Positions 2,426-14,659 of a stretch of DNA of 14,659 bases are shown piece by piece. The stretch is from Prototheca cutis (taxonomy: Eukaryota > Chlorophyta > Trebouxiophyceae > Chlorellales > Chlorellaceae). The notes beneath the pieces are model-generated. The model did no database searches and had not been told where the DNA came from. It worked only from the letters and a program-made list of their open reading frames with translations. Positions within the stretch are counted from its first letter, which is position 1. Every line of letters starts with the position of its first letter. The stretch spans positions 201,731 to 216,389 of the forward strand of contig BCIH01000009.1 of assembly GCA_002897115.2 (NCBI GenBank), read 5' to 3'. The translations under genes were made by a program, and so were the position numbers.

Positions 2426-3584
2426 TCATGCCTCGGTCTCTGTGGCCTTGCTCTCTGCACCGTCGGGAAGCGGCTGGACCCCAGGCTTGGGCAGCGGGAA
2501 CTTGTCAGTGAGGAGAGCCGTGGCGGCATCGAGACCGCCGTCCAGGTACACCGCGCCCACCAGTGCTTCGAATGTTTCGGCCATCATGTTGTTATTTGGA
2601 CCACCCGACTCTGCAGAAATGGGAGGGACGAGGGGTGAATGAACGAATGGTAGGATGCTCGGTGATTGCCTGGTGGGAGGACGAGAGGAGGGTGAGCTCG
2701 CCGACAACCCAGGCTCCCACCGCCACTGACAAAACAAACACAAAACCTGCAAAAGCGCTACACCCCACCAAGGACCCCAGTAACTGCACACGGCCTACCC
2801 TTCTGGCTCTTGCTTTGGATCATGAAGTGGTCGAGGTGCAGCTTCTGGGCACAGGCGTAGAGGTGCTGACGTGACAATGCTCCGGCTCGCGTGTCAGCCA
2901 GCGTCCCCAGCGCCGCACTTTCTTCCCGTTCCACCAGCAGCTGCTGCGTTCGGACCATGAGCAGCACGGCGTCCCCCAGCCAGGCCAGGCCCCTGTTGTT
3001 GGTTTGCTGTGCCGCGCTGGCCTGCACCAGGCTCAACCGCAGCAGGTAGCGGTCGGCGAATGTGTGGCCCAGCGCAGACTCCAGCTTGTCATAGTCATGA
3101 GGCCCAGGTTCTGTGGGTGGTGCCTTGGCCACATCCGTGAACACCACCGCCCGCCCCACCTGGGACAACTGTTGTTGGAGGGGTGGGATGGGCAGGGTGG
3201 TTGGGGGGGGGGCCTCAAGTCTTGGAGAACTCTACAAGTTGCTGCACCACATGCATGCATTACACACTCGCCACTAGATACCGGGGAATGCAATGCCGGG
3301 TGATTCCTCGAAGAAAAATAGGCAGCAAGTGAGTATGGTGCTTCACGGCAGGCACTGCCTGATGGCAACAGTGGAGACCACCATGAGACATCCGGCACTT
3401 CACGTACGTTGCGCTCGAGGGCCTTTCGGAGGGCTAAGGCTGCCATTGCATGTGTTCCAGGACTGCCCCTCTGCCCACACTGCGTCACCAGGGATCGGTG
3501 CCTTGCTGCACCGGGGCGCTGGTCATGGAGCACTCGGACCTGAAGCGGGCACGAGCCACGCCTAGACTGGACGGGGAAGCTCAT
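2426..3584 (-). CDS. RNase III-domain protein, possibly organellar, incomplete catalytic site (3 exons)
   Basis: Exons on the minus strand: 3584-3408, 3159-2799, 2610-2426 (TGA). Phases match, giving 240 residues. The body carries one RNase III fold. LESALGHTF and LLRLSLVQAS correspond to the first helices. NRGLAWLGDAV (about residues 114-124) is the RNase III signature. AETFEALVGAVYLDGG (about 190-205) is the second active-site helix. Canonical enzymes read NERLEFLGD and aD-fEALiGAiYLD. Here the first catalytic Glu is Ala (A118), D122 is kept, the next Asp is Glu (E191), and E194 is kept. No dsRNA-binding domain follows. The first roughly 46 residues are rich in Arg and Ser and poor in acids, as in a transit peptide, so I chose the ATG at 3584. 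The ATG at 3446 is an in-frame alternative giving 194 residues. A short out-of-frame ATG lies just upstream at 3588. It may be a structural or rRNA-associated RNase III relative. Substrate is unknown. Confidence 0.8.
3203..3212 (-). repeat. C10 tract (sense strand) in intron 1 of the RNase III-like gene
   Basis: Ten G on the plus strand read as ten C on the transcript strand, roughly 45 bases upstream of the acceptor at 3161-3160. It is listed because it repeats the sense-strand poly-C pattern of the other genes. Confidence 0.75.
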
Positions 3585-3952: not shown

Positions 3953-6157
3953 ATGCCTTATTCTGGACCCCCTCCATCCCGCAGTGGCAGCCCCTTGAAC
4001 CCCTCATCGGTACGGCAATGGAAACCCCTGCCTGGATCCAGCTTTCGCGCAGGTAGGTAGTGTGTGTGAGAGGGGGTGGAGACAGCACCTAGAGCTGGCA
4101 CGTAGAGCTGGCATTGGGCAGTTGAGGCTGGACGCCCAACTGCCATCTGAGACCGTCGATGGTGGTTCATCTCTCAAAACACACATGTCACCCTAAGGCC
4201 ACGAACATATAGGTGACGACAATAATGGCGTGGAGTTGCCACTGCCGCTGCGTATCGCGGCTGGGCCCGCGCTGCAACTGCAGGCGGCCGCCGAGCGGGA
4301 AGTGATCGGGGAGTTGCGTGTTCCCAGGCTGCGACAGCTGTCCCTGGCGCTGACGTGGCGCGGCCTGACGGGGCTGCTGGCCATGGCCCTGGCGGCGCTG
4401 GCCGCACACCAGGCGCTGCTGCCCGTGGCCATCATTCCCCTGGCCACGCGGCGCGGGTGGGACGTGGGGCAGCAGGGACTGCTGCTTGCCGCATCGTTCT
4501 GCGGCCAGCTGGCAAGCCAGGTGGCCGGAGGCATGCTGGCGGACCGAGCCGGTGGCAGGCTTCCACTCGCCATTGGGCTCATAGGTTCTTGCCTGGCGAC
4601 GTTGGTTTCGCCGGTGGCCGCGGCCCATGGCGGCCGGGGTGGCCTGCTCGCCGCTCGCATCTTGCTGGGCGTCGCGCAGGGCACTGCCGCACCTGCAGTG
4701 CAGTCTTTGCTGGCGGCGCACTGTCCGCCGGCGCGCCAGTCCACTGCCGCCGCAGGCTGTGCGGCCGCGCAACTGCTGGGGATTGCTGCCGTGTTTGGCC
4801 TTGTCCCGGGCTTGCTGTCGAATGCACCCTGGCATGCGCCGTTTTACATCGCTGGATCGCTGGCATTGCCATGGCTGCTGCCGTGGGCATTGTTGCAGCT
4901 TGGGCCGGGGGCACGGCCGCCGGCCAGGTTCGGAGGTGGGCCCGGTGCCGAACCTGGCGGCGGTGCGCTGGCTTCGCTTTGGCATCAACTCGCGACATCC
5001 ATGAGTGCAGTACTCGGCAGGCGGCCTCCCGCCCACGACGTGGCGGGTGGGCAGGTCCTGGCGCCCATCGCAGAAGAGGACGGTGATCGCCAGTCCTGGA
5101 GCATGCGAAGCATGCTGATTTTGGATCGACTACGGTTCTGGTCGGCGGCGCCGCCAGCGACGACAGTGGCCTCCCCTTCTGCGGCCTCCTCTGCATCCCC
5201 CTGGCGTGCCGGCCCCGGCGGCATGTCTGCCGGGACAGAGGGGTACCGATTGGCTCCCGTTCGGCCGATGTCCCCCGGGCCCGAGTCTGCCAGAGATTTT
5301 GCTGCCACCTCAGACGACGGGGCGAGCGATGCCGGCACGGAATGGAGCGACGGTGTGGCCACGGGGTACCGGGCACGGCTGGCCGCCGCGCCCGCGGGAC
5401 CCGCTGCACTGCTGCGCCAGCGAGAAGTCTGGGCCATCTGCGTCGCCCAGTTTGCCAGTGCGTCTGGTTGTTCGTTTCTGCAGCTGGGTTACATGGCACA
5501 CATGTTTCTGTATGATTTTTTAATGGGCATGTCGTTGCACATCCTTGCAAGGCAAAGACCCATCCGAACATCCCACTGTCACAAATTCCCTCCCCAAAAG
5601 GTTCGTGGGGCGCGTACGGCTTGCTGAGCTGGTTGCCTTCATATTTCCGCGAGGCCTTTGGCGTGGAGCTGGGGCGACTGGGCAGCTTTGCGGTGCTTCC
5701 CTTTGCCGTACCCGCGGTAGTGGGTCTGGGCGCTGGTGCTGCCACCGATCGCCTGCTGGCGCGGGGGTGGCCTGTCGCTCGTGTCCGCCGGGGGCTGCAG
5801 GCCGCAGGCATGCTCGGCCCCGCAGCGTGCCTGGCGGCCGCGGCAGCCTGCTCGGGACCCCGGGGAGCCGCGGCCTGGATCACGCTGGGTTCTGCGGCAG
5901 GGGCACTGGGGTTTGCCGGCGCAGGGGCCAACCATCTGGACGTCGCTCCGCGGCATGCCGGCACCGTCTGGGGCGCGGGGTCTTCGGCCGCCACCGCCGC
6001 AGGCCTGCTGGCCGTGCCGGTGTCAGGCTTTGTGCTGGAGGCCACGGGGTCCTGGGCCGCTGTGCTGGCGCTTGCAGCCGCAAACTACGCACTGGGAGCA
6101 GCCGTCTACTGGGCGTGGGCCGGAGGGGAGGCCTTGCTTGCGGACGGAGGGCTGTGA
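3953..6157 (+). CDS. MFS anion/phosphate transporter, PHT4-like, with predicted transit peptide (3 exons)
   Basis: Exons: 3953-4052, 4213-5487, 5601-6157, giving 643 residues. Exon 1 is a Ser/Pro/Arg-rich leader (MPYSGPPPSRSGSPLNPSS...) ending at a GTAGGT donor. It is in phase with the TATAG acceptor, while the main exon has no in-frame ATG upstream of its first membrane segment. This makes exon 1 attractive but unproven. The N-terminal half has hydrophobic segments and MFS motif A (GGMLADRAGGR, about residues 139-149). The C-terminal half carries SWGAYGLLSWLPSYF, PF-VPAVVGLGAGAATDRLLARGW and GANHLDVAPRHAGTVWG. These match the second half of PHT4/SLC17-type transporters, including the Asn-His-Asp-Pro-Arg-like stretch. 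Such proteins move phosphate or organic anions across plastid or other organelle membranes. The central loop (about 268-435) is unusually long and Ser/Gly/Ala-rich. Substrate and membrane are inferred from the family only. Confidence 0.85.
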
Positions 6158-7785: not shown

Positions 7786-9381
7786 ATGCTGCGCACCCTC
7801 GCCTCCCGTGCCTGCCGGGCTCGCGGCATGGTCGCCCGCCTGGCCACCTCTGTGGAGTCCAGCATGGCCACCGCCGACAATGTTGCCGTGCGTGCCTTCA
7901 CCACCTCCGCCCTGGTGAGTCTGGGCCTTTGGGTTTGAGACTGCCTCCCGGACTGATTTGGGCCACGTGTCCCGGTGTCGGACCTCGGTCGGGATCTCGG
8001 GACTTCGTGCCGCGTGCTTGCATGGAGGGCCTGCACTTGCTCGAGACAACTCCGGCCAGTTTGAATGCGATCCCGTGGCGTTCCCACCCAAGATGTCCAC
8101 TCCTCCCCCTCCTGTCCCCCTCCACTGCAGCGTCCCGGTGCCCTGCCCATTCCCCAGGGTGCGCACGGCGTGAACTACCACAACTCTCCCCCCGAGGGTG
8201 GTTACGCGTTCTTCATGCCCCGCCAGTCCCTGATCGGCCCCGGCGCGCTGAAGACTGCCGGCGGCATCGTCAAGTCGCTGAACCTGAAGAAGGCCCTGAT
8301 CGTGACCGACGAGGGCATGGCGAAGTCTGGTGCGACCAAGGCCGTGACCGACATGCTGGCCTCCAACGGCATCGAGGCCGTCATCTTCCCTGGTGCCATG
8401 CCCAACCCCACTGACCAGAACGTCGCGGACGGTCTCAAGGCCCTGCGCGACAACGGCTGCGACTTTGTCGTCTCTTTCGGCGGCGGCTCGTCCCACGACT
8501 GCGCCAAGGGCATTGCCATCGTGGCCACCAACGGCGGCCGCATCCACGACTACGAGGGCGTGGACCGCTCCAGCAAGCCCATGATGCCTCTGGTCTCCGT
8601 CAACACCACCGCCGGCACAGCCTCTGAGATGACGCGCTTCTGCATCATCACCGACTCTTCCCGCCGCGTGAAGATGGCCATCGTCGACTCTGCAGTGACG
8701 CCCACGATTGCTGTGGACGACCCGACTCTGATGGTCAAGATGCCCAAGGCCCTGACGGCGGCCACAGGCATGGACGCCCTGACGCACGCGGTGGAGGCCT
8801 ACATGTCCACCATCAGCAACCCCGTCACCGACGCCAGCGCCCTGCACGCCATCAAGCTCATCTCCGCCTACCTGCGCACCGCCGTTGCCGACGGCGCCAA
8901 CGCTCAGGCCCGCGACATGATGGCCTACGCCCAGTTCCTGGCCGGCATGGCCTTCAACTCGGCCTCTCTTGGCTACGTCCACGCCATGGCCCACCAGCTG
9001 GGTGGCTTCTACAATCTGCCCCACGGTGTGTGCAATGCCGTCCTGCTGCCTTCCGTCCAGGAGTTCAACGCGTCGGCCGTCCCCGACCGCTTCATCGATG
9101 TGGCCGAGGCCCTGGGCCTGGGCAAGCTGTCCAAGGACGATGCCCCCAGCGCCGTCGTCGCCGCCATCCGCGAGCTGGCTGCCGATGTCAACATCCCCGC
9201 CAACCTGGAGGTCCTGGGCGTCAAGCCCGCGGACTTTGAGATCCTGGCCGAGAACTCGCTCAAGGATGCGTGCGGCTTCACCAACCCCCGCCCCGCCAAC
9301 AAGGAGGAGCTGATCGAGATTTTCCGCCGCGCCTACGAACAGGGCAGCTCTGGCCAGCAGGCCGCCGCCGCTTCCGCGTAG
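7786..9381 (+). CDS. Iron-containing alcohol dehydrogenase, AdhII/FucO class, mitochondrial (2 exons)
   Basis: Exons 7786-7914 and 8131-9381 (TAG) are separated by a 216-base GTGAGT...TGCAG intron, giving 459 residues. The enzyme interconverts ethanol and acetaldehyde with NAD(H). In anaerobic algae it would reoxidise NADH during fermentation. Exon 1 encodes a basic, Ser/Ala-rich leader ([20 protein letters not shown]) ending in RAFTTSAL, a good mitochondrial presequence. The mature part shows [10 protein letters not shown] (about 160-169) for the dinucleotide, and [18 protein letters not shown]. Metal ligands by homology are D258, H262 (GMDALTHA), H327 and H341 ([19 protein letters not shown]), with H331 the usual nearby active-site His. 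All are present. Similarity to Zymomonas AdhII is close enough to recognise over the whole length. It ends in a Gln/Ala-rich tail. The gene has its own promoter and TGTAA signal. Confidence 0.95.
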
Positions 9382-11795: not shown

Positions 11796-12140
11796 GCCGC
11801 TGCATAGACTGGGGATCCCAGTCGTTCCTGATTGAGAATCACCTGAAGGTCGCTGTACTTGCAGGGCAAAAATGATGAACCTTGTCGGGATTCATCGACT
11901 CCCACCTGCACAGCAAGGGCATGTCTCTCAAACAAAATGCCTGTTGGACCGCATCCCCTTGCCGCGTTGCCCAGAAAATGGGCTTAGTTCCTTCATGGGA
12001 CAGGTCGTGCAAGGAGGTTTTACAAGGTCCTGGAAATTGACTCCCTGGCAAGAGCACTGGGGGTCTCCCGAGGGGGGTCGGCCAGTGGGAACTCGGCACA
12101 ACATACGGGGATTCCCCGCGAACCTATCTATTTCATGCAC
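11796..12140. promoter_or_regulatory. Upstream interval of the methyltransferase and left flank of the Fanzor-like region
   Basis: These 345 bases should contain the minus-strand methyltransferase promoter, and possibly the left end of the element or first exon upstream of the Fanzor-like gene. One frame (11872-12189) stays open here but its residues match nothing I know. I see no TATA box, terminal inverted repeat or target-site duplication that I could defend. Confidence 0.4.
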
Positions 12141-12285
12141 CCATTACAATAACNGGTGCAAAGCGAATGGCCCGCAACTTTTGGGGTAGCGGGCGGGAGG
12201 CGCCCAGGGGCGCCATGACGACCGCCAAGGCGTCAGTGCGTGCGACCTGGCAGCGCATGTTCCACGGTCTTCTGGACGAATAGGA
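12141..12285 (+). pseudogene. Degenerate tandem copy of the Fanzor-like N-terminal exon
   Basis: This stretch aligns to about 12417-12565, some 281 bases downstream, at about 80% identity by hand over 112 bases (12171-12282). Both copies are preceded by CACCCATT. The copy reads TAKASVRATWQRMFHG where the downstream exon reads TAKASVLATWKRMFHG. It carries a one-base insertion near 12185, an in-frame TAG at 12187 and a second TAG at 12281. It therefore looks like a decayed duplicate exon, or a remnant of a second copy of the gene. Similarity fades after about 12285. Confidence 0.7.
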
Positions 12286-12428
12286 GAGCCAGGTCGACAT
12301 CAGCTCGTGAGTTCCCGTTCTGGAAGACGGTGCTGTCCCTTGCGTGGTGGCATTCTGGCGCCCTTCACCAGAGCAGCAGGTGGGAGACTTCACGCCGCCC
12401 TGCCCAATCCATCCACCCATTGTTACAG

Positions 12429-14659
12429 CAGGCAGGATTGCGAGGTCGATGGACCGCGACTTTTGGGCCGCGGGCGGGAGGCGCTCAAGGGCGTCTTCAC
12501 GGCCGCCAAGGCGTCGGTGCTGGCCACCTGGAAGCGCATGTTCCATGGTCCTCAGGAGCAGTATGTCCAAAAGATGCATCCCGTGAAGCAGCATGCCTCG
12601 TTCTTCGCTGCACTCGTGTTGCTGGAGGAGGACGAGGCGGGCAGTGCGGACTTTGCAACGCGGTTCGTCTGTCCCAGGTTCTTTGCCGAGGTCTTCCTGT
12701 ACATGGTCAGCTACTCCCCTAGGAGGAAAACACGCGACGACGAAACGACGTACTTCCGTGCCCGTTTCCAGAGGTCCTGGCCCATGTTCCAGCAGGCGAC
12801 TGCGTACGAGCGGCGGCAGTTCTACCACGCACCCAATCAGGTGACTGATTGAGTTGTGGTTGCATGTGTTGCTGGCATCGCGGGCTGAATGCAGGATTGT
12901 CTATAATGGATTGGCACGCAATGGCCCAGACCACGTGGTGGACGAGCCGGGTGCTCCTTGACGTGCAGGATGCCAAGTACTGGGGAGAAGCCCAGTGCGC
13001 GGCGGTGGAGGCCAACGTTCGCAAGCACTTTGGCGAGCACGTGCGGGGCACCATGAACCTGATCCTCNANGTCAAGGACCGCCGGAAGGAGNTGGATGCN
13101 CGGGCNCGCAGNGAGNNNTGGGATCGCAAGAAGCGCAACGAGACGCGCGAGCGGGAGGTCAACGGGCCCGCGAGGCACATCAAGGAGGCGCTCGGGCGCC
13201 TGGAGGCGACCGTGGAGGGAATGGACGCCACACAGCAGGCAAAGTACGACCGGCTGCTGCAGCTTCTGCGCAACGCCTATCCCCCGGGGTACCGCTTCGA
13301 AAAGGGCACCTTCTACTACGACTCCAAGGCCAACCCGAGGGAGCACGTTCGCGCGATGATCGCGATGTCCCGCTTCCGCGTCGAGGAGGGAATGCGCACG
13401 TTCCGGGCGATCCCCATGCACACTTCGCATGTGCCTGGGGCGGTGCAGATGGACAACTACATCGTTGCGAAGCAGTTCCTGAAGGACAGCAAGCTTGGCT
13501 CATTCGCGGCCAACTTGGAGTTCATCTGGGGNACACTGCTGATGCCAGGTCGCCGCGAGATCAAGGACATCAGTGGAAACAAGTTCCAGGGAGTCGTAAG
13601 CTCTGACGGCATCAGCTGCAGTTTCATCAAGAAGCCACCGGGTCAGACTCGCTGGGCCTGCCATTCTGGCGGCGGTGGTGGCGACGGCGACGGAGGAGGC
13701 GGTGCTGATGGCGGCAANGGCAATGACGGCGGCGGCGACGGCGGCGGCGCTGGTGGCGGCCGCGGCAGAGGCGGCGGCGGCAGAGGCGGTCGCGGCAGAG
13801 GCCACCGCCGTGCTGGTGGCGGCGGCGCTGGCGGCGAGGGCCGCGGTGACATGGGTGACGCAGGCGGCAGCAGCCGCACGCAGCCTGCGAAACGGAAGTT
13901 CCCTGGCGATGGCGGGGACAACAGCAATGACAACGAGGACGGCGGCGGCAGCACCCGCGCCGCGCGAGTCGAGGCAGAGGGAGCGACCGGCTCCCGCGTG
14001 GTTCGTGGCAGGGCCGCCAGCATTGCTGCTGGCACCGCNGCTAGCGCGGAGTCGGACGGCATTGACCCCCCTCAGCAAGATCACACAGACGCACAGCAGC
14101 CGGCCGCACGACGCAGGGTCGTGAAGCGCCGAGGCCTCGAGGGCCTGCGCTACGTCGATGACCTCAGCCCCGAGGAGCTGGAGCAGCTCGGCAAGTGTGT
14201 GTTCATTGACCCCGGCCGCAGGGACTTGATGTACTGCATGCACGAGGACTCGAGCCACGAGAAGGGACGCCGCCTGACCATGCGGATCAGCAGCAGGGAG
14301 TGGGCGTTCCTCACACGGTCGCGCAAGTTCCGGAGGCTGCTCCGGAGGCTCATGACCAAGGGCGTGCGCAAGGCCCAGCAGCGCCTGGCAACTGAGGCAC
14401 CCAACGGGGCCAGGGCCTGCACTGTGGCAGACTTCTTGGCGTACCTGCGTGTGTTCGGCCAAGTCGAGGCGACGCTCAGCAAGCACTATGCCAAGCCCAT
14501 CTTCCGGAAGCTCCGTCTTTGGACGTACATTTACCGGCAAAAGGCCTACGCGGCGGTCATCGCGCGCCTGCGCAAGTTCGCGAACGGCGCGACGCTGGTC
14601 GTCGGCGACTGCTCGCCGGGCCCGGCACGCTACCACGAGCCGATGCCACACGTGGGGCT
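12429..14659 (+). CDS. Fanzor-like (eukaryotic TnpB relative) RNA-guided nuclease, 3'-partial
   Basis: Two exons are readable: about 12429-12840 and 12930 to the window edge, joined by an 89-base GTGACT...CCCAG phase-0 intron. The 5' end is uncertain. The frame is open from 12190, the first in-frame ATG is at 12538, and a TTACAG acceptor ends at 12428. The readable part is about 710 residues with no stop. Order of features: a helical N-terminal part (ANVRKHFGEHVRGTMNLIL), then RTFRAIPMHTSHVPGAVQMDN. Next comes a Thr/Ser-Asp-Gly strand motif (FQGVVSSDGISCSF, Asp codon 13605). A long Gly-rich insert follows, then RuvC-I FIDPGRRDLMY (Asp codon 14208) and GDCSPGPARYHEPMPHVG at the edge. These match Fanzor1-type proteins. 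The family cuts DNA guided by an RNA encoded near the gene's 3' end. RuvC-III, the zinc finger and the guide RNA would lie outside. Several N bases blur 13068-13118. Confidence 0.85.
13665..14020 (+). repeat. Gly/Arg-rich low-complexity insert in the Fanzor-like protein
   Basis: GGC/GGT/GAC-type triplet repeats encode runs of Gly with Asp, then RGRGGGGRGGRGRG-type motifs. A basic patch PAKRKF follows, and then an acidic Asn/Asp/Ser stretch. It lies between the SSDG strand and RuvC-I. The RGG-like part is a common RNA-binding composition, and PAKRKF resembles a nuclear localisation signal. The opposite strand is open only because of the same triplet repeats. Confidence 0.75.

Follow-up and report, generated by a model that had tools for sequence, protein, structure and literature searches.

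The stretch of DNA analysed here (the window; 14 659 nucleotides, positions 201731-216389 of contig C9 in a genome of 19.89 Mb and 23 contigs) carries a copy of Fanzor1, a nuclease of a eukaryotic group related to CRISPR enzymes. It is fairly probable, in our judgement, that this copy lies within a Tc1/mariner-like DNA transposon of a Prototheca-type alga, and that the transposon is kept in its genome by the RNA-guided retention mechanism proposed below. The Fanzor1 identity, the inverted repeats, the TA flanks, the 56 coding places and the approximately 290 right ends are read from sequence, and the mechanism is what we infer from them. The role of Fanzors for their transposons is an open question, on which this genome bears in two respects: it holds many independent insertions of one family, both gene-bearing and gene-less, and an asymmetry of their flanks predicts a motif ahead of assay.

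The remainder of the window contains the following host genes.

1243-1689: piece of a phenylalanyl-tRNA synthetase gene
2758-3231: piece of an RNase III-like gene
4197-5627: MFS transporter gene
8065-9381: iron alcohol dehydrogenase gene

The iron alcohol dehydrogenase is nearest to those of Prototheca wickerhamii (85%) and Auxenochlorella protothecoides (79%), and the original prediction of a green-alga chromosome was thus right as to lineage. Profile searches of the genome for Chloroa_b-bind (light-harvesting) and for RuBisCO_small returned no match, while the control gave a signal in each case; the host is therefore probably a colourless Prototheca-type alga. A description of a Fanzor family in Prototheca was looked for in the titles and abstract openings of openly licensed PMC papers, and none was found there.

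The gene and its parts, all on the + strand, were placed as follows.

12167-12283: imperfect upstream copy of the exon 1 start, approximately 282 bases before exon 1, with 69-79% similarity
12449-12840: exon 1, with its ATG at 12449; in the window copy, the early part and the remainder are in different registers
12841-12929: putative GT-AG intron of 89 bases, from the sequence
12930-14657: exon 2, open to the window end, encoding REC/WED and the first part of RuvC (frame and Fanzor1 alignment)
13653-14132: 160-residue Gly/Ala/Arg-rich low-complexity insert at the WED-RuvC junction (sequence)
14202-14237: RuvC-I motif FIDPGRRDLMYC, with the Asp codon at 14208-14210 (alignment to solved Fanzor1 proteins)
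14595-14642: GD-S-P block LVVGDCSPGPARYHEP, which includes VGDCSP (alignment to solved Fanzor1 proteins)

A Fanzor-type nuclease gene with the landmarks of Fanzor1 in order had been predicted, and it is apparent that all of these landmarks occur in one open frame (12849-14657, + strand), which runs up to the window end: RTFRAIPMHTSHVP at 13395-13436 (+), the SSDGISCSF strand beginning at 13599 (+), and the RuvC-I and GD-S-P motifs listed above. The window frame alone matches the solved Fanzor1 proteins of Parasitella parasitica (PpFz1; E = 1.3e-26) and Spizellomyces punctatus (SpuFz1; E = 1.1e-10), with the aligned stretches in order, so the agreement of the landmarks is not due to chance. FIDPGRRD (14202-14225), which contains the RuvC-I Asp, aligns to both proteins. 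When a family profile built from five relatives was run against the PDB, the matches below E = 1e-3 were three Fanzor1 proteins only, those of P. parasitica (2.8e-88), S. punctatus (4e-47) and G. theta (6.3e-6), the next match listed being at 0.22. Membership of Fanzor2 or TnpB was considered and rejected, since neither appears by name in the list of 22 PDB sequences that reaches to E = 10. A Pfam search of the window frame gave no match, and two sibling proteins matched Cas12f1-like_TNB only, below the cut-off. No relative was found in the viral contigs searched. Taken together, these data support the identification of the window gene as a Fanzor1 that is cut at the window edge. Any RNA-guided DNA cleavage by the family is putative.

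The protein database contained a single homologue (P0001; 647 aa), the predicted structure of which is poor (mean pLDDT 48.9). This protein lacks the published Fanzor/TnpB motif described below in having N in place of the expected last RuvC-III Asp (WGRN), and is therefore probably catalytically dead.

A run of N begins at the base after the window and continues to the end of the fetched stretch, so RuvC-II, the zinc finger and RuvC-III are unreadable in the window copy. The missing third is represented in siblings from the same genome, which supply the RuvC-II Glu, the C4 zinc finger and the RuvC-III Asp; the E-x-TS motif, the C4 finger and the final RuvC Asp that they carry bear out the Fanzor1 reading. 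In sibling L003 (contig C7), an open frame of 748 residues continues with DEFRTSKRCPAC, GLLRCTNEKC and WNRD, corresponding to RuvC-II, the C4 finger and RuvC-III, and matches PpFz1 over three stretches (1.4e-56) with all of the RuvC and zinc-finger motifs aligned. The published motif, given in excerpts of PMC3627910 as D-X(125-275)-[TS][TS]-xx-C4-X(5-50)-RD, is present in L003, L010, L011, L022 (both strands), L023, L026, L027 and others. Further subfamilies, approximately 50% identical to that of the window, are situated at 1.44-1.45 Mb on contig C4 and at 1.19 Mb on contig C2. The L022 (+) frame encodes 680 aa with all catalytic residues, and is interrupted by neither a stop nor an N.

The two-exon reading of the original prediction agrees with the gene model above, in which exon 1 extends from the ATG at 12449 to 12840 and exon 2 begins at 12930, after the putative GT-AG intron. 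Among copies, 30% of the intron columns vary, as against 10-21% in the coding parts. The upstream copy of the exon 1 start was also found in other family copies. The ATG frame is in register with the exon 1 frame in 8 of the 13 copies with comparable exon 1 sequence (one chance-match row was dropped) and out of register in 5, the window copy among them. In the window copy the start-codon frame loses register near the beginning of exon 1, and a full-length protein is probably no longer made from it. Values of dN/dS between subfamilies range from 0.54 to 1.08, so selection at the protein level is weak or unproven. Within the family, an excess of third-position differences was observed in exon 2a only (p = 0.002; exon 1, p = 0.28; exon 2b, p = 0.69); these differences were counted by alignment column, and repeated counting of those private to the window copy was avoided.

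The low-complexity insert lies in exon 2, after the WED strand and before RuvC-I. Where 159 residues separate the aligned stretches in the window copy, the P. parasitica Fanzor1 has 6. Relative to the window copy, 25 of 27 indels in the insert are multiples of three, as against 11 of 82 upstream (pairwise counts, which are not independent), and this pattern fits an insert that is translated. KRK, within 13887-13907, is a possible nuclear signal. Other subfamilies have inserts of different composition at the same WED-RuvC position. Three divergent Fanzor1 copies with common flanking repeats are clustered, in both orientations, in L021/L022 (C4:1441000-1456400), and their WED-RuvC inserts differ, being rich in Asp/Ser or in Asp/Ala. 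A Fanzor1 paralogue at L023 3852-6161 has a second insert, of tandem CKNGRECKSERG-like repeats, between the halves of the zinc finger.

The boundaries of the element were determined from aligned copies, and are as follows (all + strand).

11853-11857: left flank CTGTA, with the TA target-site duplication at 11856-11857, after the predicted VTSTA motif (sequence; family flank statistics)
11858-11881: left terminal inverted repeat (aligned sibling ends; matched once in the window, where shuffles predict 0)
11858-14659: Fanzor1-carrying Tc1/mariner-like element, the right part of which is lost in the N run (aligned sibling ends)

The coordinates given in the original prediction start at 12429; the Fanzor1 gene occupies 12449-14659, and the transposon begins earlier than the given coordinates, at 11858. 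The ends are sharp in the aligned copies: in most, TA is followed directly by C..GGCAAAAATGATG at the left, and CATTATTTTTGCCCTGCAYGG is followed directly by TA at the right. The terminal inverted repeats of most copies read CCRTGCAGGGCAAAAATGATG at the left and CCRTGCAGGGCAAAAATAATG at the right (reverse complement). Of the unique ends, 76 of 82 at the left and 63 of 70 at the right have TA where it is expected. The 40 end-to-end pairs were selected for TA at both ends, and their 40/40 is thus by construction. The ends, TA and repeats fit the Tc1/mariner class. A profile search of the genome for DDE_3 transposase gave no match, and its control gave a signal; searches for Transposase_1 and DDE_1 likewise gave no match, but neither did their controls give a signal. 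Empty sites were looked for among the fetched loci, and none was found.

A protein search of the genome yielded at least 77 matches in at least 56 Fanzor-coding places, a large number of which are fragmentary, in part on account of N runs; neighbouring matches within 2 kb on one strand were merged into one place, and the counts are lower bounds. Within the main family, protein identity is 80-97% for most of the matched pieces. With up to 3 mismatches allowed, a 27-base right-end pattern occurred 293 times and a 20-base left-end pattern 220 times, whereas each pattern reversed occurred 0 times. Of the ends that the right pattern identified on the fetched loci, 68 were right and 1 was left; for the left pattern, the tally was 83 left, 1 right and 1 tie. 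A shorter right-end pattern (390 matches) was discarded, as with 3 mismatches it caught 65 left ends against 69 right ends. It is apparent from the 293 and 220 ends, compared with 56 places, that ends are several times commoner than Fanzor-coding places. The 40 paired elements comprised 22 of 354-367 bases, 9 of 589-625, 2 of 665-678 and 7 that were longer, in proportions that are no census, most of the short ones having been picked by the spacing of their ends. The last approximately 145 bases are common to the short gene-less copies and the Fanzor copies (45 sequences aligned, once duplicates had been removed along with rows that contained N or fell below 165 bases).

These last approximately 145 bases are a candidate guide-RNA scaffold. 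In L013 they fold at -63.2 kcal/mol (z = -3.08, for this one sequence), in a structure where an internal stretch pairs with the right terminal repeat; from this pairing, a guide would be expected to begin beyond the closing helix and the TA. In the consensus structure of the right end, 98% of cells pair. Covariation showed no excess (score 0.101, against 0.104 in shuffles), and the structure is therefore a plausible prediction only. Loci L011 and L013 matched no family in Rfam.

The bases outside the two ends were compared further. G or C precedes TA in 71 of 76 left flanks as against 36 of 63 right flanks (p = 4e-7); the corresponding figures are 41/76 and 11/63 for TG (p = 9e-6; background 9.9%), and 48/76 and 15/63 for VTS followed by TA. 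The left and right flanks differ significantly at positions -1 to -4 and do not from -5 outward. G or C was found before the left TA in 17 of 18 ends at loci fetched for Fanzor matches (3 of the 18 being from gene-less elements) and in 54 of 58 at loci fetched by their ends; the latter are mostly gene-less, as assessed at those loci where the right end was also fetched. The bias persists when elements with two right ends are removed (p = 1.4e-7). The sampled ends are, for the most part, the best pattern matches and were not drawn at random. A preference symmetrical about TA is incompatible with this asymmetry, which either a target-adjacent motif on the left side or an asymmetric transposase can produce. 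VTSTA is predicted to be the target-adjacent motif of this Fanzor1 family.

In the mechanism that we propose, the Fanzor1 of an intact sibling would bind an RNA transcribed from the last approximately 145 bases of an element together with the host bases beyond its right TA, the latter serving as the guide. Such a guide would match the site left empty after excision, or the sister chromosome from which the element is absent. Fanzor1 would cut this empty site where the left flank supplies VTSTA; the occupied copy would then serve as the repair template, so that the element is kept or spreads. The same protein could also act in trans for short gene-less elements that have both ends. An extension of the proposal, which we put forward only tentatively, is that a few intact Fanzor1 copies serve the approximately 290 right ends in trans, each gene-less element guiding to its own empty site, with the left-only VTSTA bias as the footprint of RNA-guided retention.

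The explanation that competes best, although we give it appreciably less than an even chance, is that the VTSTA preference at the left comes from a transposase whose choice of insertion site depends on orientation, and not from a Fanzor target-adjacent motif. The right flanks do show a weaker bias of the same kind, with T at -2 in 27 of 63, which a transposase favouring such sites would produce. Insertion at TA in random orientation, however, predicts like flanks, and the difference is confined to -1 to -4. In S. punctatus, moreover, the conserved CA before the left repeat is contained in CATA, the motif obtained in a cleavage screen (excerpts of PMC10432273). Somewhat less credible, though still a real contender, is a decayed relic in which Fanzor1 was active during the spread of the family, all copies are now dead and the ghosts are ordinary non-autonomous elements. 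Many copies are truncated or out of register, dN/dS is near 1 in several comparisons and the transposase family was not found (DDE_3, as well as Transposase_1 and DDE_1, whose controls gave no signal). Set against these points are several copies and subfamilies in which a long frame stays open and every catalytic residue is present, such as L022 (+) with 680 aa, the high protein identity of most main-family pieces, and the exact pattern match in 100 of the 100 right ends listed, with either right-end pattern. A domesticated, immobile single-copy host gene would be spliced and chromosomal, as this one is, but is very improbable here: the family, taken as a whole, contradicts it, being multicopy and flanked by repeats and TA.

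Related systems are on record, a Fanzor element having been described already from Auxenochlorella and ghost loci from Spizellomyces. The Spu-1 element of S. punctatus, which encodes SpuFz1, has 42 loci and a further 134 ghost loci that lack the gene and keep the right end, and action of the ghost loci in trans has been proposed for it (excerpts of PMC10432273). As described there, Spu-1 resembles the present family in its Fanzor1, inverted repeats, multiple copies, more numerous ghosts and conserved bases before the left repeat; it differs in host, in repeat sequence and in the length of the shared right end (75 bases, compared with approximately 145 here), and neither the predicted VTSTA motif nor the spliced gene with its low-complexity insert corresponds to Spu-1 and SpuFz1. 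SpuFz1 has, of course, been proven biochemically, whereas the activity of the present Fanzor1 is putative. PpFz1, the closest solved relative by the profile search, has the motif ATN and an insertion of approximately 100 residues inside RuvC (excerpts of PMC11423790), whereas the present insert of approximately 160 residues lies between WED and RuvC-I; the family adds to the known Fanzor1 proteins one whose WED-RuvC junction carries a long insert of low complexity. Tc/mariner elements that encode Fanzor1 only and have inverted repeats and TA duplications, such as PUl-4, were reported by Bao and Jurka in 2013 (excerpts of PMC3627910), and the present element is like PUl-4 in all of these respects. 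Their elements carry repeats identical to those of confirmed mariner elements, whereas the present searches revealed neither a transposase nor an autonomous element to match. In the sister lineage, an uncharacterised element encoding a Fanzor outnumbers every other repeat of Auxenochlorella UTEX 250, and may or may not belong to the present family; the excerpts of PMC12633428 that describe it name no element class, ends, ghosts or motif. The same source reports that Auxenochlorella is readily manipulated by homologous recombination, so Fanzor retention or homing could be examined in a close relative.

Two unusual arrangements of ends were also observed. Elements of approximately 100 bases with two inverted right ends are present at L051-L054 (C2:1757533-1757746, C5:67138-67367, C7:263286-263502 and C8:807678-807897), with TA at 7 of their 8 outer edges, a number of ends too small for analysis of their flanks. 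Judging by these elements, mobility may not require a left end. Head-to-head pairs of copies, with left ends approximately 10-250 bases apart, were found in L018 (2075-2436 and 2679 onward), at C2:64083-64478 and at C2:1602909-1603306; this arrangement could be due to chance.
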